This document shows positions 45,857-55,193 of a stretch of 64,000 bases of DNA, piece by piece. Origin of the DNA: Chryseobacterium gleum (GTDB lineage Bacteria > Bacteroidota > Bacteroidia > Flavobacteriales > Weeksellaceae). The stretch lies in assembly GCF_900636535.1 (NCBI RefSeq), contig NZ_LR134289.1:3489001-3553000 (forward strand), in the 5' to 3' direction. Under the pieces are notes generated by a model. That model searched no databases, was not told where the DNA came from, and saw only the letters and a program-made list of their open reading frames with translations. The position numbers and the translations under genes were made by a program. Within the stretch, counting starts at the first letter, position 1. Each line of letters opens with the position of its first letter.

Positions 45857-45929
45857 TACCATTCGGTAGCAAAAGAATGCCTTTCGGTAACAATTTTTTT
45901 ACAGAAAGGCATTTACTGTGCTATTTTTG
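45857..45929 (+). promoter_or_regulatory. LytTR-type direct-repeat promoter A (TonB receptor)
   Basis: TTCGGTA at 45862-45868 within ACCATTCGGTA, and TTCGGTA at 45883-45889 within GCCTTTCGGTAA, start exactly 21 bases apart. A perfect -7 box TATTTTTG lies at 45922-45929, 39 bases after the start of the second half-site core. No TTG occupies the -33 position at usual spacing, as expected for an activator-dependent promoter. The ACC(A/G)TTCGGTA half-site resembles the AlgR-type LytTR box (CCGTTCGTC). Confidence 0.7.
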
Positions 45930-45947
45930 ATCCAGAAAACAATAAAA

Positions 45948-48194
45948 ATGAAAACACAAGGACAAAACATACTGGTTCTTTTTTTCCTGATCGCTTCCAT
46001 CATGGGATATTCTCAGGTGAAAATATCGGGGAAAGTTTCCTTCAAAAACAAAGGAGTCGCTGAAGTAAATGTAACACTTAAAGATACTTACGACGGGACA
46101 ACCACTGATGCACAAGGTAATTTTACATTTGAAACTTCAGAAAAAGGAGCTCATATCATTACTTTTACCCATCCGAAATATGAAAACGTAGAAAGACCAG
46201 TCTCTATTGAAAATCAGGATGTCTCTTTGAATGTCGACCTTAAAGAACAAATCAGCGAAATTGATGCCGTTGTCGTTTCTGCCGGATCTATTGAAGCCAG
46301 CGATAAGAAAAGAGCAACAGCACTGCTTACTCCCATTGATATTTATACCACAGCAGGAGCGGATGGACAGATTTCTTCAGCACTGACTTATCTTCCCGGT
46401 GTACAAAAAGTGGGAGGAACGGAAGGTCTTTTCATCAGAGGAGGTACAGGAACGGAGTCTAAAATTTTTATGGATGGAAGTCTTATCAACAATTATTTTT
46501 CCAATTCGGTTCCGGGAATTGCAGGAAGAGATCAGTTCAATACCTCTCTTTTTAAAGGAAATATATTTTCAAGTGGTGGTTATTCTGCGCTGTACGGCCA
46601 AGCCCTTTCAGGAGCATTGATGCTGGAAAGTGTGGATCTTCCGGATGAAACTTCTTATAATGTTGGGATTTCACCTATTTTCCTGAATGCCGGATTTCAG
46701 AAGCTGTCAGACAATAAAAACTATTCCTACGGAGCTACAGCAGGGTATTCCCTTTTAAGCCTTATGCAGAAAGTTTTTAATTTTAATACAGATTTTGTTG
46801 AAGCGCCACAAGGTTTTAACGGAGACCTGAATTTCAGATTTAAAACCAAATCAGGAGGATTTTTTAAATATTACGGAATGTTCAATTCCAATAGAATGGG
46901 TGTGAAGTCGGAAAGTCTTGAACCCGGTTCCGATTTCAGCCTGGTAAAGCTTAATGGCAAAAACACTTTTCATAATCTGTCTTTTAAACAAAAATTTGGA
47001 AAATATCTGCTGAATGTGGGTGGTTCTTACTCTTATAACAGATCAGATCTTCATTTTTCTACAGAAACCAATGATGTTGAGTCCAACAGGAGCCAGCTTC
47101 TGACTGATGGAAATTACCTGAATTTTAAAGCAGTTCTTGAAAGAAAAATCAACAGAATCAGTGCGGTAAGGGGAGGTTTTGAACTTAATAATACCGATGA
47201 AAATCTGAATTTTGAGGCCGTAAATAAGCATTATAAAGATTTGATCTCATCAGCATTTGTTGAAACAGATCTTGGCTTCAGCAATGCTTTGTCAGCGAAA
47301 ATTGGAGTAAGAACAGAACATTCATCATTTTTAGGAAAAAGCAATATTGCACCACGTTTTGCAATTGCATACCGTCTGGCAAAAGACTGGACCACTTCGT
47401 TAGCTTACGGACTTTTTTATCAGAATCCGGAAAGTAAATACATCAATGGCCCTGCAAATCTTGGTTTCCAGAAATCTCAGCATTATATCTTTCAGGTTCA
47501 GAGAGCATCAGAAGGCAGAACATTACGTTTTGAAGCGTTTTACAAAAAATATGATCAGTTGATCAAAACCTTCAATATTACCCAGGATAAAGAGCAGAAT
47601 CAGCAGATCCAGACTGCATTGAACAATAATGGATACGGATATGCAAAAGGACTGGAGTTTTTCTGGAGAGATAATAAGAAAACATTTGAAAATATTGATT
47701 ACTGGATCAGTTATTCGTATCTGGATTCAAAAAGAGATTTCCTGAATTATCCTGTGAGCCTGCAGCCAGGTTTTGCTGCAGAACATACACTTTCAGCAGT
47801 GGCAAAAAGATTTATTCCGGAATGGAAATTAGGGGTAAACCTGTCTTATACCTATGCAAAAGGCCGTCCTTATTATGATATTGCCTCTACATTTAAAAAT
47901 GGAGAAGCCGTAAATTTTATCCGAAATGAAGGCAGATTAAAAGATTACAACGCATTGAATTTCAGTATCAATTATCTTCCGAATATTGGTAAAAAGGATG
48001 CGAAATCTTTTCCTGTATTTGTACTGAGTATCAGTAATATTTTAGGATCAAAAAATGTATATGGCTATAATTTTTCAGCAAATGGTTCCAGAAGCTCTGC
48101 AATTGTGCCACCGGTCAATACTTTTGTATTCATAGGAGCATTCATAAGCTTCGGAGTAGACAAAACGGACGATGCCATCAATAATAATTTATAA
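45948..48194 (+). CDS. TonB-dependent receptor with carboxypeptidase-like N-terminal domain
   Basis: The ATG at 45948 gives 748 residues, starting in front of the signal peptide (NILVLFFLIASIMGYSQ). The ATG 10 codons upstream lies within the -7 box and is rejected. Residues about 22-100 form a CarboxypepD_reg-like domain (VKISGKVSFKNKGVAEVNVTL, TTTDAQGNFTFETSEKG). The plug domain follows (about 125-225, YLPGVQKVGGTEGLFIRGGTG), and then the 22-strand barrel to the C-terminus. The substrate is unknown; the locus has no SusD partner. A 219-residue secreted protein follows 49 bases later, and LytTR-type promoter A precedes the gene. Confidence 0.93.
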   Translation: MKTQGQNILVLFFLIASIMGYSQVKISGKVSFKNKGVAEVNVTLKDTYDGTTTDAQGNFTFETSEKGAHIITFTHPKYENVERPVSIENQDVSLNVDLKEQISEIDAVVVSAGSIEASDKKRATALLTPIDIYTTAGADGQISSALTYLPGVQKVGGTEGLFIRGGTGTESKIFMDGSLINNYFSNSVPGIAGRDQFNTSLFKGNIFSSGGYSALYGQALSGALMLESVDLPDETSYNVGISPIFLNAGFQKLSDNKNYSYGATAGYSLLSLMQKVFNFNTDFVEAPQGFNGDLNFRFKTKSGGFFKYYGMFNSNRMGVKSESLEPGSDFSLVKLNGKNTFHNLSFKQKFGKYLLNVGGSYSYNRSDLHFSTETNDVESNRSQLLTDGNYLNFKAVLERKINRISAVRGGFELNNTDENLNFEAVNKHYKDLISSAFVETDLGFSNALSAKIGVRTEHSSFLGKSNIAPRFAIAYRLAKDWTTSLAYGLFYQNPESKYINGPANLGFQKSQHYIFQVQRASEGRTLRFEAFYKKYDQLIKTFNITQDKEQNQQIQTALNNNGYGYAKGLEFFWRDNKKTFENIDYWISYSYLDSKRDFLNYPVSLQPGFAAEHTLSAVAKRFIPEWKLGVNLSYTYAKGRPYYDIASTFKNGEAVNFIRNEGRLKDYNALNFSINYLPNIGKKDAKSFPVFVLSISNILGSKNVYGYNFSANGSRSSAIVPPVNTFVFIGAFISFGVDKTDDAINNNL

Positions 48195-48243
48195 AAACAT
48201 AACTTAGAACCCATAAACATCACTAACTTTTAAAATTTGAATC

Positions 48244-48903
48244 ATGAAAAAATACCTTTTAAGCTTTGCTTTAGCTTTTATGAGTCTAACTGCTTTTGCA
48301 CAGGCAGATTACGACAAAATAATGTCTGACAAAATCGCCAGAATTGAAACCTGTAAAACACCGGAAGATTTCCAGGCTCTGTCTAACGACTTCCAGAGAA
48401 TAGGAAGCAAAGAAAGTACGAGATGGCTTCCGGCATACTACGCAGCTTTTTCTTTAATTCAGAAAGGAAGAGTCCTGATGAGAGAGGGTAAAATGCAGGA
48501 GCTTGATGTTATCGCTGATCAGGCGGAGAAACATCTTTCAATGGCTCAGAATCTTGCCGGAACTGATAATGCGGAAATTCATCTGCTGAGAAAAATGTCT
48601 TATTCCCTGAGAATGATGGTAAATCCTGCACAGCGTTATATGACAGACGGAGCAAGAGCTGCTGAAGAGCTTAATGTTGCAGAGAAATTAGATCCTTCCA
48701 ATCCAAGAATTGCGCTGATCAAGGCAGAAGATACTTATTTTACTCCTGAACAGTACGGGGGAAGCAAAACGAAAGGACTGGAAATGTTTAAAGATGCTCA
48801 GGCAAAATTTAAAGCCTACAAACCCAAAACAGCTTTAGATCCTAACTGGGGAAAAGCTGAAGCAGATTATTTCCTGAGCTTGCCTGCAGAAAAAGCAAAA
48901 TAG
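48244..48903 (+). CDS. Secreted helical protein of unknown function
   Basis: A 219-residue protein with signal peptide MKKYLLSFALAFMSLTAFA and an entirely helical mature part with TPR-like spacing (KMQELDVIADQAEKHLSMAQ, AARAAEELNVAEKLDPSNPRIALIKAE). The PEQYGGSKTKGLEMF segment near residues 175-190 looks conserved. I do not recognise a family beyond this. It probably acts in the periplasm, alongside the TonB-dependent receptor encoded immediately upstream. It is the last gene before a terminator, so receptor and secreted protein form one output unit. Confidence 0.78.
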   Translation: MKKYLLSFALAFMSLTAFAQADYDKIMSDKIARIETCKTPEDFQALSNDFQRIGSKESTRWLPAYYAAFSLIQKGRVLMREGKMQELDVIADQAEKHLSMAQNLAGTDNAEIHLLRKMSYSLRMMVNPAQRYMTDGARAAEELNVAEKLDPSNPRIALIKAEDTYFTPEQYGGSKTKGLEMFKDAQAKFKAYKPKTALDPNWGKAEADYFLSLPAEKAK

Positions 48904-48927
48904 TTTTCTTTTTTTACGTAAAAAATC

Positions 48928-48955
48928 AACCTTCATTCGTGAAGGTTTTTTTATA
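48928..48955 (+). terminator. Terminator of the TonB receptor unit
   Basis: AACCTTCA and TGAAGGTT pair around a TTCG tetraloop (48928-48947), followed by T7. Confidence 0.88.
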
Positions 48956-49025
48956 CCATTCAGAAAAGAAAATCAGCCCTTCGGTAAGAATTAATTTTTG
49001 ATACCTTTAATAAAAACTAATTTTG
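48954..49025 (+). promoter_or_regulatory. LytTR-type direct-repeat promoter B (kinase operon)
   Basis: ACCATTCAG, with its TTC at 48959-48961, and CCCTTCGGTAA, with its TTC at 48980-48982, are spaced 21 bases apart. TAATTTTG at 49018-49025 is a perfect -7 box, 38 bases after the second core, followed by AGTCAAGAAAACA. The same elements appear at sites A and C. Confidence 0.7.
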
Positions 49026-49042
49026 AGTCAAGAAAACAGATC

Positions 49043-50374
49043 ATGAAGCGTAAATACCTTACCACATTACTTTGGACTTCGTTAGGAACCACATTGTTTT
49101 TCTTTTTATTTTTTAATGATGAAAAGACATTCCGGACCTTTTTGATCACGCTGCTCCTGTCAACAATGTATTCTTTTGTCCTGGGATTTGGAAACGGATT
49201 TATCAATGAATTTCTCAATAAAAAATTTCCCTGGTCAGAAGCTACCCGCACAAGGGCTGTCTTAAGTATTGTTTCTATTATCATCGGAAACTTTATTCTG
49301 GTCTATTTCTGTAATTATATGAACTATGTTGTCATTCAGAAAACAGCCACTGCAGAAGAGTTTTTTTCATCAAAATATGGAGTTACCAATTGGTTTATGA
49401 TCAATATTGCTCTGCTGATCTCTGCTTTTCTGCATGCGAAAAGTTTTATGGAGGAGCTGAAGAAGACTTCCAGAAAAGAAGTGGTGGAACAGAAGCTTAT
49501 TGCCAAATCTGCCAATGCGCAGTTTGAGAGTTTAAAGAATCAGCTGGATCCTCATTTTCTTTTTAATTCATTGAATGTTTTGAGCTCCCTGATTGATGAA
49601 AATCCACGACAGGCACAGAAATTTACTGCTTCAATGTCAAAGATTTACCGGTATGTACTTGAACAGAAAGATAAAGAGATGGTGACGGTGGAAGATGAAA
49701 TAGAATTTGCAAAAACCTATTGTGAGCTTTTAAAAACCAGATTTGAAGACAGTGTGGATTTTAGTTTTGATGTTCCCAGGGAAGATTATCAGAAATATGT
49801 GGTTCCGCTTTCTCTACAGCTGCTGTTGGAAAACTGTATCAAACATAATTTTGCGACATCATCAAAACCACTTACTATTAGAATTTTTTCAGACGGAAAT
49901 ACCCTTTGCATTGAAAACAATCTCCAGGTAAGAGAGCAGATCAAAGAAAGTTCCGGGATTGGTCTTGCCAATATTGTACAACGCTATTCTCTGCTTACAG
50001 AACGGAATGTCTTTATAGAAAAGTCTGAGGATCATTTTAAAGTAAAGCTTCCGATGCTTTTAGTTAAGCCACAAGTTTCCAATGAAGAACCTGAAGAAGA
50101 AGCTGCTGCTTATAAAAGGGCTCAAAAGAGGGTTAGGGAAATGAAAAAGTTTTATTCCAGCCTGATTACGTACTGTATTATTATTCCTTTTTTATTCTTT
50201 GTCAATCTTTTTACAAGTAAAGGGGAGTATTGGTTTTGGTATCCGGCATTAGTGTGGGGAATGGTTTTGGCTTTCAGAGCTTTCAAGATTTTCGGAATCG
50301 GGGAGTCCTGGCAGGAAAAGAAGATCAGAGAAATTATGAATCAACAAAAGAACAGAAGCAATGGAAAAATTTGA
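49043..50374 (+). CDS. LytS-type histidine kinase with C-terminal 2TM domain
   Basis: The ATG at 49043 gives 443 residues; a TTG 15 codons upstream would lie across the promoter and is rejected. Four N-terminal helices (about 5-25, 30-48, 75-95, 112-130) precede the His_kinase domain. There QFESLKNQLDPHFLFNSLN carries the phospho-acceptor His near residue 171. LLLENCIKHN (N box, about 260-270) and SSGIGLANI (G box, about 303) form the ATPase. A C-terminal 2TM domain (about 355-440) repeats the pattern of the three free 2TM proteins downstream. It phosphorylates a LytTR regulator in other systems; the gene 1.7 kb downstream is the likely partner. Confidence 0.92.
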   Translation: MKRKYLTTLLWTSLGTTLFFFLFFNDEKTFRTFLITLLLSTMYSFVLGFGNGFINEFLNKKFPWSEATRTRAVLSIVSIIIGNFILVYFCNYMNYVVIQKTATAEEFFSSKYGVTNWFMINIALLISAFLHAKSFMEELKKTSRKEVVEQKLIAKSANAQFESLKNQLDPHFLFNSLNVLSSLIDENPRQAQKFTASMSKIYRYVLEQKDKEMVTVEDEIEFAKTYCELLKTRFEDSVDFSFDVPREDYQKYVVPLSLQLLLENCIKHNFATSSKPLTIRIFSDGNTLCIENNLQVREQIKESSGIGLANIVQRYSLLTERNVFIEKSEDHFKVKLPMLLVKPQVSNEEPEEEAAAYKRAQKRVREMKKFYSSLITYCIIIPFLFFVNLFTSKGEYWFWYPALVWGMVLAFRAFKIFGIGESWQEKKIREIMNQQKNRSNGKI

Positions 50375-50666
50375 TGAAAATGATATTCACTATCAGCAGG
50401 CAAAAAAGCAGGTGGAACAACTTACCGGGTTTTATGGACATTTATTCGTTTATGTGGCAGTAAACATCATTATTGTCTTTTATAATATTTCACATCTGGA
50501 ACCGGGAGAAAGTTATTTTCAGTTTAAGAATTTCTTCACTGCCATTTTTTGGGGGATCGGACTTCTGGTTCATGCACTTTCCGTTTTCTTGCCAAAAATC
50601 GGTGCTGTAAAAAAGTGGGAGGAAGATAAAATCCGTGAAATAATTGATAAGAAAAAAGATCATTAA
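50361..50666 (+). CDS. 2TM-domain membrane protein 1
   Basis: A 101-residue protein whose ATG lies inside the kinase stop region (14-base overlap), so translation is coupled. It has the 2TM family pattern: a basic or acidic first helix (AKKQVEQLTGFYGHLFVY), two hydrophobic helices (about 22-45 and 55-75), then a charged terminus (KKWEEDKIREIIDKKK). The family is limited to Bacteroidota and its function is unknown. Similarity to the kinase's own C-terminal domain suggests interaction with it. Confidence 0.88.
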   Translation: MEKFDENDIHYQQAKKQVEQLTGFYGHLFVYVAVNIIIVFYNISHLEPGESYFQFKNFFTAIFWGIGLLVHALSVFLPKIGAVKKWEEDKIREIIDKKKDH

Positions 50667-50720
50667 AAAACAGAACACTATGTGATTCATTTGAAAATTA
50701 ACCTTAAAAACCTAACGGAA

Positions 50721-51290
50721 ATGAATACTTTATCCATTCTATTTTATATTTCAATGACAGCCTGGTTTCTTACAGAGATATTGTATAAAAACATGCTGAA
50801 ATCCGGTAAAGAAGACAAAAAAGATAAGGACAGATCTACTCTTAATATCTTATGGCTGGCCATTCCTTTTTCCATCATGAGTTCAGTAATCCTATCCTAT
50901 AATACCCGTTTGCCGATCATTAAAGACAACTGGATTCTTTACCTTGGTGAGTTTTTCATTCTTGCCGGGATTATTTTCAGGTACATTATTATCAGGTCTC
51001 TGGGAAAATACTTTACAGTAGATGTTACCATCAGACAGGACCATAAAATCAAAAAAGAGGGTTTTTATAGATATCTGAGGCATCCTTCCTATGCTTTTTC
51101 CCTGCTAACATCACTTGGACTTGGCTTGTATCTCAATAACTGGCTTTCATTACTCTTTGCTTTTGTGCCTCCTTTTTTAGCTTTTGCCTACAGGATTAAA
51201 ATTGAAGAACAGGCTCTGGTGGAGCAGTTTGGAGAAGAATATATCGCTTACAGAAAAAGTACTAAAAAGCTGATCCCTTTTATCTATTAA
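50721..51290 (+). CDS. Isoprenylcysteine carboxyl methyltransferase-like membrane protein
   Basis: The ATG at 50721 gives 189 residues; a GTG 13 codons upstream is a weaker option. It has about five hydrophobic helices, then the ICMT/PEMT motif GFYRYLRHPSYAFSLLTSLG (about 122-141) and the C-terminal EEQALVEQFGEEYIAYRKST. These proteins are SAM-dependent methyltransferases on lipids or unknown membrane substrates in bacteria. It lies between 2TM protein 1 and promoter C, so it should be co-expressed with the kinase. What it methylates here is unknown. Confidence 0.86.
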   Translation: MNTLSILFYISMTAWFLTEILYKNMLKSGKEDKKDKDRSTLNILWLAIPFSIMSSVILSYNTRLPIIKDNWILYLGEFFILAGIIFRYIIIRSLGKYFTVDVTIRQDHKIKKEGFYRYLRHPSYAFSLLTSLGLGLYLNNWLSLLFAFVPPFLAFAYRIKIEEQALVEQFGEEYIAYRKSTKKLIPFIY

Positions 51291-51301
51291 GTTGAAGTTC
51301 T

Positions 51302-51374
51302 TACCATTCAGGTATCATTTTCTACCGTTCGGTAATATAAAATTGATAGGAGGCTTTTTTCTGAACTACCTTTG
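51302..51374 (+). promoter_or_regulatory. LytTR-type direct-repeat promoter C (2TM/regulator operon)
   Basis: TACCATTCAGGTA (TTC at 51307) and TACCGTTCGGTAA (TTC at 51328) are 21 bases apart. The perfect -7 box TACCTTTG (51367-51374) is 39 bases after the second core and is followed by ACTCAAGAAAAAAACA, like the ATCCAGAAAACA and AGTCAAGAAAACA at A and B. Confidence 0.75.
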
Positions 51375-51414: not shown

Positions 51415-51711
51415 ATGGAGATTTTACCTGATAAAGAAACAATTGCTTACAGAAAAGCAACAAGAAGAGTAAAAGAATTGAAAGAGTTTTATGGAAATCT
51501 TACTTCTTACTGTCTTGTAATTCCCTTTTTAGCTGTACTGAATATTCTTACCGCTCCCGGATATTTATGGTTTTTATGGCCTGCATTGGGCTGGGGAATC
51601 GGACTTGCATTTCATGCCGTTAATGTATATGGAATTGGTAAAGAATGGGAAGAAAGGAAAATAAAAGAACTGATGGATAAAGAAGAAAAGCCAAAAATAA
51701 AAACATTTTAA
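51415..51711 (+). CDS. 2TM-domain membrane protein 2
   Basis: A 98-residue protein almost superimposable on the kinase C-terminus: YRKATRRVKELKEFYGNL, then two helices (SYCLVIPFLAVLNIL and WPALGWGIGLAFHAVNVYG), then EWEERKIKELMDKE. The conserved PALxWGxxLAxxA core within the second helix identifies the 2TM family. It is the first gene after promoter C. Confidence 0.9.
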   Translation: MEILPDKETIAYRKATRRVKELKEFYGNLTSYCLVIPFLAVLNILTAPGYLWFLWPALGWGIGLAFHAVNVYGIGKEWEERKIKELMDKEEKPKIKTF

Positions 51712-51740: not shown

Positions 51741-52016
51741 ATGGATTATCAAACTGCGTACACAAGAACTCAAAACATTAAAAAATTCTACAGAAGTATT
51801 TTTATATTTGCGGTAGTTGCTGTCCTTATTGCTCCAGACGATATTTTTGATGAAAAAACGATCAGAATTCAATTATTCGACAGATATGCTATACTTGGAA
51901 TATGGGGACTTATCCTTCTTGTAAAAGCCTTAAAGCTGTTTCTTTTTGATTCCGAATGGGAAAGGGAAATGATTGAAAAAGAACTCAGAAAAGAGAAAAA
52001 GCCGATAGACTATTAA
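51741..52016 (+). CDS. 2TM-domain membrane protein 3
   Basis: A 91-residue protein with the same two-helix layout (TQNIKKFYRSIFIFAVV and RYAILGIWGLILLVKALKLF) and a basic tail (EWEREMIEKELRKEKKP). It is more diverged than 2TM protein 2 and has an acidic loop between the helices (DDIFDEKTIRIQ). It is 29 bases after its paralogue and about 60 bases before the LytTR regulator, in one operon. Confidence 0.86.
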   Translation: MDYQTAYTRTQNIKKFYRSIFIFAVVAVLIAPDDIFDEKTIRIQLFDRYAILGIWGLILLVKALKLFLFDSEWEREMIEKELRKEKKPIDY

Positions 52017-52076: not shown

Positions 52077-52820
52077 ATGATCAAAACTGTCATTATAGAA
52101 GACGAAAAACCGGCTTCAAGGAAATTAGAAAGAATGCTGGGTAACTTTCCTGAAATTGAAATAGTTGCTAAAATAGAATCAGTAGAAGAAGGAGTTGCCT
52201 GGTTTTCTGAAAACGAACATCCCCAGCTGATTTTCTCCGATATTGTTTTAGGAGACGGTCTCTCTTTTGATATCTTTGAAAAGGTACCTACCAAAGGTTT
52301 CATCATTTATACGACAGCTTTTGACCAGTACACGCTGAAAGCATTTAAACTGAACAGCATTGATTATCTATTAAAGCCCATCCTTGATGAAGATCTGGAA
52401 GGCGCTGTAGAGAAGTTCAAATCATTCATTCCTGCCAGTGATACCAATGCTTCTCAGGATATCAAACAGCTGATCAGGAAGGAAAAATCAACGCTTTCCA
52501 GAGTTCTGGTTAAAATAGGTTATAACCTTAAAATTATACAGACTCACGAAATAAGCTGTTTTTTCAGTGAGAACAAAATCGTTTACCTTCAGACAGAAGA
52601 CCGTACTTATCCATCAGATTTTACACTTGATGAGCTGGAAGACGTCCTGGATGAAAAAAAGTTTTTCCGTGTCAACAGGCAGTTTATTATCAGTTCAGAT
52701 TATATCAAAAACATTCACACTTCACCTTATTATAAAGTGGATCTGGATTTTCAGCCGGAAGATGAAATTACAGTTAGCAGAGACCGGGTGAAAGACTTTA
52801 AGGATTGGCTGGTCAGCTGA
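52077..52820 (+). CDS. LytTR-family response regulator
   Basis: A 247-residue regulator. The receiver domain (about 1-120) has the acidic pair in VIIEDEKPASRKLE, the phospho-acceptor Asp55 in FSDIVLG, the switch Thr/Ser in YTTAFDQYTL and the conserved Lys in YLLKPI. The LytTR DNA-binding domain (about 140-245) follows, with FRVNRQFIISSDYIKNI. LytTR regulators bind direct repeats as dimers and usually pair with LytS-type kinases; the kinase is encoded in this locus. Three direct-repeat promoters in the same region are its predicted targets, one of them its own. Confidence 0.93.
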   Translation: MIKTVIIEDEKPASRKLERMLGNFPEIEIVAKIESVEEGVAWFSENEHPQLIFSDIVLGDGLSFDIFEKVPTKGFIIYTTAFDQYTLKAFKLNSIDYLLKPILDEDLEGAVEKFKSFIPASDTNASQDIKQLIRKEKSTLSRVLVKIGYNLKIIQTHEISCFFSENKIVYLQTEDRTYPSDFTLDELEDVLDEKKFFRVNRQFIISSDYIKNIHTSPYYKVDLDFQPEDEITVSRDRVKDFKDWLVS

Positions 52821-52914: not shown

Positions 52915-54141
52915 TCAACTGCCATAGAAATCGCTGGCAGATTTTATAAAATGGTGAAAGGCATCTGTAACTTCCTTCTTGTGCTTATAGCTAAGAGGAA
53001 AAGGAACCATATGGGAATATTCGTACGGAAAATCTTTGATTTCAATATCAACATTGATATTCCTGTAACCTCCCTGCAGCGTATTTAGGGCTTCCATTGG
53101 AGGAGCAACACTATCTTTCTCCAGTACATAAGCTTTGATTTGTGTCTGGATTTCCTGAATTCTTTCTTCCCTTTCTTTCTGAAAATAATTATAACGGAGC
53201 ATCTTTTTAAACCAGCTTTCCTGTGGATGTAATGCTTCGGTCTGATAATGTTTAAGCCGGGAATCTGATTTAAAATCCGAGCTTAGAAGCTCCGTAAAAA
53301 CAGACTGCATTTTGACGGTTGCTTGGGTATCCATAATGTATTTGGATATGGGAAACATCCGGTCGATCGTCATTCCACCGCAAAAGCAGAAAACTTTCGA
53401 TTCGGAAAAGTAATGATCAGGATCAGCCATTTTGATGATCATGGAAAGGAAAGATCCTATAGAATACCCGAATAAATCTAATTTTGCATCCTGGGAAATA
53501 CTTTTTAAGTGGCCGTTTTTGATATCTTTTACCACTTCGGTAATATCAGAATAGGTTTGAAGGCCGGACCAGAACATCCTTTGAGGATGAGCCTCCAGAC
53601 GGGAACTTATGGCAGCATTTACATAAGAATAATTCATATTTTCAGGATACTTTTTCTTCCTGAAACGTACTACTTCCATCATGTGATGGCGATCGCTCCA
53701 GATAGGCTCTGCACGGTTCATATGAAAAGCGATAGGGAAAAGTATAATGGCTTTTTTCGTCCTTTGAGCCAGTTCATAAGCCCACGGAAGATACTTGTCC
53801 CATTTCTTCTCATTCAGGCCATGAAAGAAAAAAATGCATCCATCAGCTTTTTCAATATCTGCGCTCTTCAGAATGTAATATTCAAACCGTTTGTTGCATT
53901 CAATCTCAAAATCTTTGATGTCTACTGTAGGATGATGATAAAGAAGATATCCTTTTTCATTGATTTCCAGAGACTGCTGATGTTTATTGCAATGCTGATG
54001 TTCCGAACCGTACAGAAGGTCAGAAACTTTAGACTCAAAAGGAACTGATTCAATGGTTACATTCAGCTCCTTTATTTCAATTGTGCTTTTTCCTGAATCA
54101 AAATGACTCTTCAATACTTCATACAATTCACAATATTCCAT
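52915..54141 (-). CDS. Alpha/beta hydrolase of the DUF6051 type
   Basis: A 408-residue cytoplasmic protein. A CIFFFHGLNEKKWDKYLPWAYELA segment (about 103-126) is the oxyanion-hole strand and loop of alpha/beta hydrolases, and LDLFGYSIGSFLSM (about 225-238) is the nucleophile elbow with Ser in GYSIG. A C-terminal catalytic His probably lies in PYEYSHMVPFP near 380. There is no signal peptide. The substrate is unknown and the gene is not in an obvious operon. Confidence 0.75.
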   Translation of the reverse strand: MEYCELYEVLKSHFDSGKSTIEIKELNVTIESVPFESKVSDLLYGSEHQHCNKHQQSLEINEKGYLLYHHPTVDIKDFEIECNKRFEYYILKSADIEKADGCIFFFHGLNEKKWDKYLPWAYELAQRTKKAIILFPIAFHMNRAEPIWSDRHHMMEVVRFRKKKYPENMNYSYVNAAISSRLEAHPQRMFWSGLQTYSDITEVVKDIKNGHLKSISQDAKLDLFGYSIGSFLSMIIKMADPDHYFSESKVFCFCGGMTIDRMFPISKYIMDTQATVKMQSVFTELLSSDFKSDSRLKHYQTEALHPQESWFKKMLRYNYFQKEREERIQEIQTQIKAYVLEKDSVAPPMEALNTLQGGYRNINVDIEIKDFPYEYSHMVPFPLSYKHKKEVTDAFHHFIKSASDFYGS

Positions 54142-54296: not shown

Positions 54297-55193
54297 CTAT
54301 CTGTAATCAATCCTGTTGGATTCTGTATCTTCAAGTTGTTTTACAATAGATTCCGGAATCTCATCACTGTCAATCGGAAAACTGATAGAGTCGGAAATAA
54401 AATTTTTTCTGTCTGCTTTTCTGAAAATTTCAAACAATGCAATCGGCTCCTGGTTGAAGCTTATACAAGTACTTATAAAGTGGATTTCGTGGAGTTTATA
54501 GTCCGGGTTCTTAAGTTTCTCTTTAATATCTTTTATCCTTGAAATAAAATGCCTCTGGCGGATAAAGGTATTGCTGTTCATGATGATGAAAACATAATCT
54601 GAGTAGGCGGTCACTTTTCCAAAATATTTATGGTGATCACCGCCGCTTCTCTCAATAAAATATTCTCCCGTAGTTTCCGACTTATAAATTTCCATCGCAG
54701 AACGCCATATACGGTCTTCTTTCGCCATCAAAGGATTATCAGGCAGATTTCGGTTATAAGAATACCAGCAGCCCACCAAACGGTCTAATAGTGCTATATT
54801 CAGATTGACATTGTTCATTTCAATTCTCAGGTCATTAAAATTGAATGATTCCGTATTGGAATTAATGAAATCTATATAATTAGAATAACCCAGCACTTTG
54901 ACGATAAGGCTGAGTTTGGCAAGATTTGGTCTGCTCAGAACAGCATTTTCATTCTGTCTGAATTTTTTCAGCTTATTGATAATCAGATGCTCATACAGAT
55001 AATTTGTTCCCAGAAGATCAGGTTCTTTTTTTATCTTCTTTTCAGAATGATCACTTACAATCAGATCGTTCAGCTCAGCACTTATATAAGACCATTCAGT
55101 TTTGGTAACATCTTCCCAATTGTTTTTCTTTAAAAACTGCCGGCTTAGGAAATTCATAAGCTTTTCGAGATGCAGAATATCTTCCTTTTTCAT
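54297..55193 (-). CDS. Protein of unknown function
   Basis: A 298-residue protein with no recognised family. The N-terminal 120 residues are helical and charged, with a KVLGYSNYIDFINS segment near 105. The C-terminal part (about 130-298) is richer in beta strands and aromatic residues (GCWYSYNRN, YFGKVTAYSDYVFIIMNS, IHFISTCISF). There is no signal peptide or transmembrane segment, so it is probably cytoplasmic. It follows the DUF6051 gene in the map but is transcribed toward it with a 155-base gap. I cannot assign a function. Confidence 0.6.
   Translation of the reverse strand: MKKEDILHLEKLMNFLSRQFLKKNNWEDVTKTEWSYISAELNDLIVSDHSEKKIKKEPDLLGTNYLYEHLIINKLKKFRQNENAVLSRPNLAKLSLIVKVLGYSNYIDFINSNTESFNFNDLRIEMNNVNLNIALLDRLVGCWYSYNRNLPDNPLMAKEDRIWRSAMEIYKSETTGEYFIERSGGDHHKYFGKVTAYSDYVFIIMNSNTFIRQRHFISRIKDIKEKLKNPDYKLHEIHFISTCISFNQEPIALFEIFRKADRKNFISDSISFPIDSDEIPESIVKQLEDTESNRIDYR

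Follow-up and report, generated by a model that had tools for sequence, protein, structure and literature searches.

Closest described systems

Autoregulation is a feature of several systems of the AgrA, VirR, PlnC/PlnD, and SilA type, and E. coli BtsS/BtsR and Staphylococcus LytS/LytR combine a PF06580-type histidine kinase with a receiver-LytTR regulator. LytTR sites are described as two 9-bp repeats with a 12-bp gap (PMC2766830, PMC4064291), and the sites of the AgrA, VirR, PlnC/PlnD, and SilA type lie upstream of the promoter and measure 21 bp from start to start. The window studied here, the whole 64,000-nucleotide stretch of DNA, corresponds to positions 3489001-3553000 of a 5.6-Mb genome assembled as a single contig. 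It contains a gene cluster in which three promoters carry a pair of direct repeats with this same geometry. The gene order is TonB receptor and SEC219 (a label coined in this analysis) in the first operon; a kinase fused to a 2TM domain, 2TM1, and an ICMT-like protein in the second; and 2TM2, 2TM3, and a LytTR response regulator in the third. The paired box is probably the binding site of this regulator (52077-52820), through which the kinase/LytTR pair would activate the receptor operon along with the two operons that encode the pair itself.

The locus resembles the known systems in several respects. First, the direct repeats typical of LytTR target sites are present at three promoters, 21 bp from start to start and upstream of the promoter. 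Second, a receiver-LytTR regulator is accompanied by a PF06580-type kinase, as in BtsS/BtsR and LytS/LytR. Third, the boxes stand before both the regulator operon and the kinase operon and are conserved in relatives, as in an autoregulated regulon. Finally, the half-site fits in register the consensus WMMGTTNRK that Nikolskaya and Galperin are said to have given, and the core CCGTTCG of the Pseudomonas AlgR box (CCGTTCGTC), to which the original prediction had likened it, is also found in the second half-site of promoter C. AlgR, too, has an oppositely oriented site, near -45 at algD (PMC4064291).

There are also clear differences. Unlike the AgrA, VirR, PlnC/PlnD, and SilA type, the present system has a TAnnTTTG -7 promoter, a 2TM-fused kinase, several 2TM proteins, three operons to the one box, and a TonB receptor and secreted proteins as its predicted outputs. 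Nor is the regulator a BtsR or LytR equivalog, because its scores (104.3 bits against a cut-off of 246 for BtsR, and 104.9 against 375 for LytR) are under the NCBIfam cut-offs. LytTR and kinase genes that have been mutated in Flavobacterium johnsoniae (PMC10197871) were considered as possible counterparts; their locus numbers are neighbouring, unlike those of the pair described here. 2TM and LytTR also come up, in different contexts, in PMC11237479. Among the papers listed by the literature searches, which took in few subscription papers, none was seen to describe a regulon that combines a 2TM-fused kinase with free 2TM proteins. The type of switch is already known, whereas this regulon is new in its members.

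Paired repeats and their constant spacing to the -7 box

The boxes of the three promoters are as follows.

45858..45889, plus strand: paired half-site A, receptor promoter, with 11-mers ACCATTCGGTA at 45858 and GCCTTTCGGTA at 45879
45922..45929, plus strand: -7 box of promoter A, TATTTTTG
48955..48986, plus strand: paired half-site B, kinase promoter, with ACCATTCAGAA at 48955 and GCCCTTCGGTA at 48976
49018..49025, plus strand: -7 box of promoter B, TAATTTTG
51303..51334, plus strand: paired half-site C, 2TM/regulator promoter, with ACCATTCAGGT at 51303 and ACCGTTCGGTA at 51324
51367..51374, plus strand: -7 box of promoter C, TACCTTTG

The two half-sites 21 bp apart that the original prediction had placed at these promoters are therefore confirmed to the base; the "cores" that it gave (45862 and so on) begin at base 5 of the 11-mers. 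The TAnnTTTG box, which it had put at a fixed distance, is found 42 or 43 bases past the start of the second half-site at all three promoters. Two further claims stood in part. As stated, there is no TTG at the usual -33 place, a spacer of 19; however, C has a TTG at spacer 21 and B has one at spacer 17, and only A has none. These TTGs, about 2 bp away from the usual place, are kept in relatives (spacer 21 in 76 of 80 C promoters and spacer 17 in 41 of 70 B promoters). Likewise, a shared initial transcribed sequence is present in B and C (CAAGAAAA) but is loose in A and in other genera, and for this reason adds little weight. If the -7 box is placed at -12 to -5, as in PMC9723704, the half-sites span roughly -76 to -66 and -55 to -45.

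The pair is rare in the genome. A degenerate form of it has three exact matches; with one, two, and three mismatches it has none, three, and 49, respectively. Because the reversed pattern gives 37 matches at up to three mismatches compared to 55 for the pair, weight can be placed on the exact matches only. The stricter derived pattern also matches this genome three times, against none when reversed. A genome-wide search had been proposed as a check on the prediction, and the exact pairs that it returns are confined to the cluster rather than scattered at random positions. Applied to the window, a matrix of the genus half-sites described below (the window's own included) finds three pairs above 25 bits at spacing 21 and none at any of the remaining 28 spacings between 12 and 40. 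Above 20 bits there are four at spacing 21 and one at spacing 14. The fourth site, at 55070 (20.1 bits), was rejected, as it falls within a coding region with no TAnnTTTG in the stretch inspected.

Conservation within Chryseobacterium

The closest named relatives of the genome belong to Chryseobacterium, with regulator identities of 97% (C. flavum) and 98% (C. cucumeris). The genus set comprised the best 80 of 140 regulator relatives' loci (Chryseobacterium and one Weeksellaceae metagenome-assembled genome), with genes located by tblastn. For the spacing test, a matrix from the window's six half-sites alone was used, the best of spacings 11 to 40 was taken, and the window made up one row. Spacing 21 was best upstream of the receptor in 74/78 rows, the kinase in 69/81, and 2TM2 in 79/80. 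Leaving out three artefact rows (L064 for the receptor, at a contig edge, and L046 and L075 for the kinase, where a 2TM protein rather than a kinase was matched), the counts were 73/77, 68/79, and 79/80. Upstream of the control gene 2TM1, spacing 21 was best in 10 of 80 rows, at low score, and it was outside the leading spacings upstream of the other genus controls, SEC219, ICMT, 2TM3, the regulator, and a phosphopantetheinyl transferase gene. Counted irrespective of spacing, pairs above 12 bits occurred in 75/78, 70/81, and 80/80 for the receptor, kinase, and 2TM2, and in 13/78 for SEC219, 8/74 for ICMT, 5/78 for 2TM3, 4/81 for the regulator, 3/80 for 2TM1, and 0/18 for the phosphopantetheinyl transferase.

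With a score of at least 10 and a distance of at most 140 bases from the gene start as the limits, 226 sites at spacing 21 were accepted (76 receptor, 70 kinase, and 80 2TM2, the window's three included). Their 452 half-sites give the consensus RCVRYTCRGTA, in which C2 is kept in 450, T6 in 452, C7 in 451, and G9 in 451. A TAnnTTTG follows 42 or 43 bases past the start of the second half-site in 222 of the 226 sites (receptor 75/76, kinase 67/70, and 2TM2 80/80).

Distribution of the box in the family and beyond

At E ≤1e-60 the regulator is present in 110 of 148 family genomes, and the box accompanies it: 70 of these 110 have a match, compared to 2 of the 38 genomes lacking the regulator (P = 6e-11, a value inflated because of shared ancestry). 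LytTR genes as such occur in 139 of the 148 genomes, and the idea of a general LytTR box serving any paralog was rejected, since the box tracks the regulator and not LytTR genes generally. When one locus per genus was taken, the best-scoring pair had spacing 21 in 17 of 20 genera, and TAnnTTT lay at 42 to 43 in all 19 pattern sites of these loci, ending in G in 12. The sites thus persist across genera while the spacer varies.

The family pattern RCVNTTCRG-N12-RCVNTTCRGT has 128 matches, including the window's three, in 72 of the 148 genomes, compared to 5 for the reversed pattern. As many as 113 lie near the regulator or ahead of the receptor/SEC219 unit: 67 are found up to 8 kb upstream of the regulator, 32 up to 3.5 kb upstream of SEC219, and 14 directly upstream of SEC219. 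"Upstream of SEC219" was taken to mean the receptor-SEC219 unit, the receptor itself being checked only in fetched stretches. The other 15 are elsewhere; 8 of them fall in fetched stretches, and the remaining 7 are about the number expected from the reversed control.

Twenty stretches were fetched that have sites away from the regulator's own operons. In 13 the receptor and/or SEC219 is downstream (the receptor match in L219 being a remnant only). The other 7 all come from genus g9, and downstream of their sites they encode a 264-residue secreted protein or one like it. TAnnTTTG lies at 42 to 43 in 29 of the 30 sites in these stretches, compared to a background of 69 in 40204 positions (0.17%). 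The target genes can be unlinked: in 25 of the 84 genomes that have both, more than 20 kb separates the regulator from SEC219, or the two lie on separate contigs. Of the 148 genomes, 88 have SEC219 (E ≤1e-30) and 107 have 2TM (E ≤1e-5); the regulator is present in 84 of the former and 101 of the latter. Genomes of the family that have 2TM (PF13239) carry one to five matches to it.

Two observations concern individual targets. At the genus g9 loci (L206, L209, L210, L213, L215, L218, and L220), the secreted-protein gene has the same box and -7 distance far from the regulator; the protein is an alpha/beta hydrolase by Pfam at L210, and the other six were assigned by similar N-termini. In several genera (L161, L164, L167, L207, L212, and L221), a separate paired box for SEC219 is present beyond that of the receptor gene, so that SEC219 seems to be an independent target.

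Across the order, 64 of 196 sampled genomes have the regulator (E ≤1e-50). In 20 loci fetched from this sample, 18 of which come from one other family (f3, taken as Flavobacteriaceae), the receptor, SEC219, a kinase-2TM gene, and several 2TM genes often adjoin the regulator. A core pair occurs within 700 bases upstream in 8 of 13 SEC219 loci, always at spacing 21, and in 1 of 10 receptor loci. In the other family a variant box recurs beside the orthologs. The pattern for it, designed from order-wide loci that had already been inspected, has 18 matches in 14 of the 196 genomes and none when reversed, and all 14 genomes have the regulator. Twelve of the matches are upstream of the regulator within 8 kb, 5 of these in loci not previously fetched, and 6 are elsewhere.

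A probable self-activating LytTR regulon

The sequences show the boxes, how rare and how well conserved these are, and that they go with the regulator and the target genes; from this we infer binding and activation by the regulator and positive feedback on the kinase and regulator operons. The regulon is real and well conserved and is probably self-activating, and the autoregulated LytTR regulon of the original prediction gains support in two ways: the exact box occurs only in the cluster genome-wide with its spacing and -7 distance kept in relatives, and it tracks the regulator while also standing before unlinked receptor and SEC219 genes. In the proposed mechanism, the 2TM-fused kinase (49043-50374) would sense a membrane signal and bring about phosphorylation of the regulator, likely at D55. 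Two regulator monomers would then bind the two head-to-tail half-sites (RCVRYTCRGTA), 21 bp apart, and the bound pair, just upstream of a housekeeping-sigma -7 promoter, would activate transcription. Positive feedback would act on the kinase operon as well as on that of the regulator, and the predicted outputs would be the TonB receptor and SEC219, with the secreted alpha/beta hydrolase in addition in one related genus.

Several results weigh against this picture or narrow it. First, 40 of the 110 regulator-bearing genomes have no match to the strict pattern, and the site is missing from 3 of the 20 genera, where regulator identity is 49 to 53%. Second, 11 of 79 rows do not favour spacing 21 at the kinase promoter, which means that the kinase operon is not under this control in every case. 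Third, exact TAnnTTTG in the other family was found at 38 to 47 in only 3 of 7 main-pattern sites and 3 of 7 variant sites; this weakens the -7 evidence outside the family, although the regulon is supported mainly by the genus and family data. Fourth, the genome has about 14 to 16 LytTR genes, for which reason cross-binding is possible. Finally, related species are non-independent observations.

Activation by the bound regulator could also be read the other way, with the regulator binding the boxes but acting mainly as a repressor or in a dual role, for example by way of a third, inverted copy that overlies the receptor promoter's -33 region. This copy is the following feature.

45900..45913, minus strand: inverted copy of A's second half-site, 21 bp on (TACAGAAAGGCATT), overlapping the -33 region

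Such a copy, about 21 bp past the second half-site, is seen in the receptor promoters of many relatives (at least 9 of 14 bases matching in 47 of 76), and it overlaps the place of a -33 element; both points favour this reading. Its arms covary at one position, a variable T/C that agrees in 41 of the 47, and by matrix it exceeds 5 bits in 22 of 76 receptor promoters, 21 of them at offset 21. However, no third copy above 5 bits was found in any of the 70 kinase or 80 2TM2 promoters, and the direct pair lies entirely upstream of the promoter at a fixed -7 distance, as expected of activation. Repression or a dual role is therefore improbable as the main mode of action. The TTC core of the inverted copy is altered in several species, which weighs against a strict third half-site; it could act as a third binding site, or as an operator for a different protein.

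A second alternative, that one or more other LytTR paralogs bind the boxes and the neighbouring regulator is non-cognate, draws on the number of LytTR genes in the genome given above and on the fact that LytTR half-sites resemble one another. The distribution of the box speaks against it. In the 29 genomes having only other LytTR genes, a match was found in 2, and neither is near any known target. In 20 genomes that have the regulator, a single LytTR gene was detected (E 1e-5). The pattern is matched in 11 of these: in 9 the match is close to the regulator, in 1 (G075, L224) it stands before the unlinked receptor, and in 1 (G001) it is elsewhere. We consider a non-cognate neighbour very unlikely. 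Chance repeats or leftover similarity of duplicated promoter DNA, for which one could cite the short leader sequence shared by two of the three promoters, can practically be dismissed given three exact pairs in the genome, spacing 21 alone above 25 bits in the window, 128 family matches against 5 reversed, and sites kept across genera despite the change in spacer and present before unlinked targets.

With the self-activating regulon as the preferred reading, an uncharacterised cluster that is conserved in many genera of its family, and can still be recognised in another family of the order, would become a defined regulon whose DNA code can be tested. A single two-component system would then connect a TonB receptor with the 2TM domain (PF13239) and with a protein family whose function is unknown. 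The kinase and the stand-alone 2TM proteins share the 2TM domain and would be induced together; one speculative idea is that the free 2TM proteins pair with the 2TM domain of the kinase and set the gain of the circuit, by feedback inhibition or by signal relay. We regard this as a rather doubtful proposal; if true, the PF13239 family would act as dedicated adaptors for a LytTR system that is widespread in the order and governs an outer-membrane receptor.

Genes of the cluster

The genes and one further site are listed below.

45948..48194, plus strand: TonB-dependent receptor, with a CarbopepD_reg_2 N-terminal domain and Plug
48244..48903, plus strand: SEC219, no Pfam match, with a signal-like N-terminus (signal peptide by eye)
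48928..48952, plus strand: terminator-like hairpin (48928-48947) with a T run, where the receptor operon ends, immediately 5′ of box B; pattern match only
49043..50374, plus strand: histidine kinase (PF06580) with a C-terminal 2TM domain (PF13239)
50361..50666, plus strand: 2TM protein 1
50721..51290, plus strand: ICMT/PEMT-type membrane methyltransferase-like protein, the third gene behind promoter B
51415..51711, plus strand: 2TM protein 2
51741..52016, plus strand: 2TM protein 3
52077..52820, plus strand: LytTR response regulator, with domain matches to receiver PF00072 and LytTR PF04397

The regulator domains score 35.0 bits (PF00072) and 73.5 bits (PF04397), both above cut-off, as does PF06580 of the kinase (89.4 bits). 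The kinase motif DPHFLFN at residues 169-175 is invariant across 28 aligned sequences, the window's included. The receptor Plug domain, at 23.8 bits, is marginally below its cut-off of 23.9. Genome-wide there are four 2TM matches (E ≤0.001), all inside the cluster and one of them fused to the kinase. A solved-structure search returned seven chains for the regulator, of receiver type, LytTR type, or designed, and one histidine kinase for the kinase; it returned no match for the receptor.

Homolog searches covered at least 120 proteins each for the receptor and SEC219. Receptor homologs are named TonB-dependent receptor, carboxypeptidase-like regulatory domain protein, or outer membrane cobalamin receptor, and SEC219 homologs are "tetratricopeptide repeat protein" in a few sources and hypothetical otherwise; among the matches listed there was no further functional name for either. 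Terminator-like sites are not enriched, with four in the region compared to a mean of 5.1 in shuffles. Beyond the cluster, a 408-residue open reading frame at 52915-54141 on the minus strand is convergent with the regulator gene.

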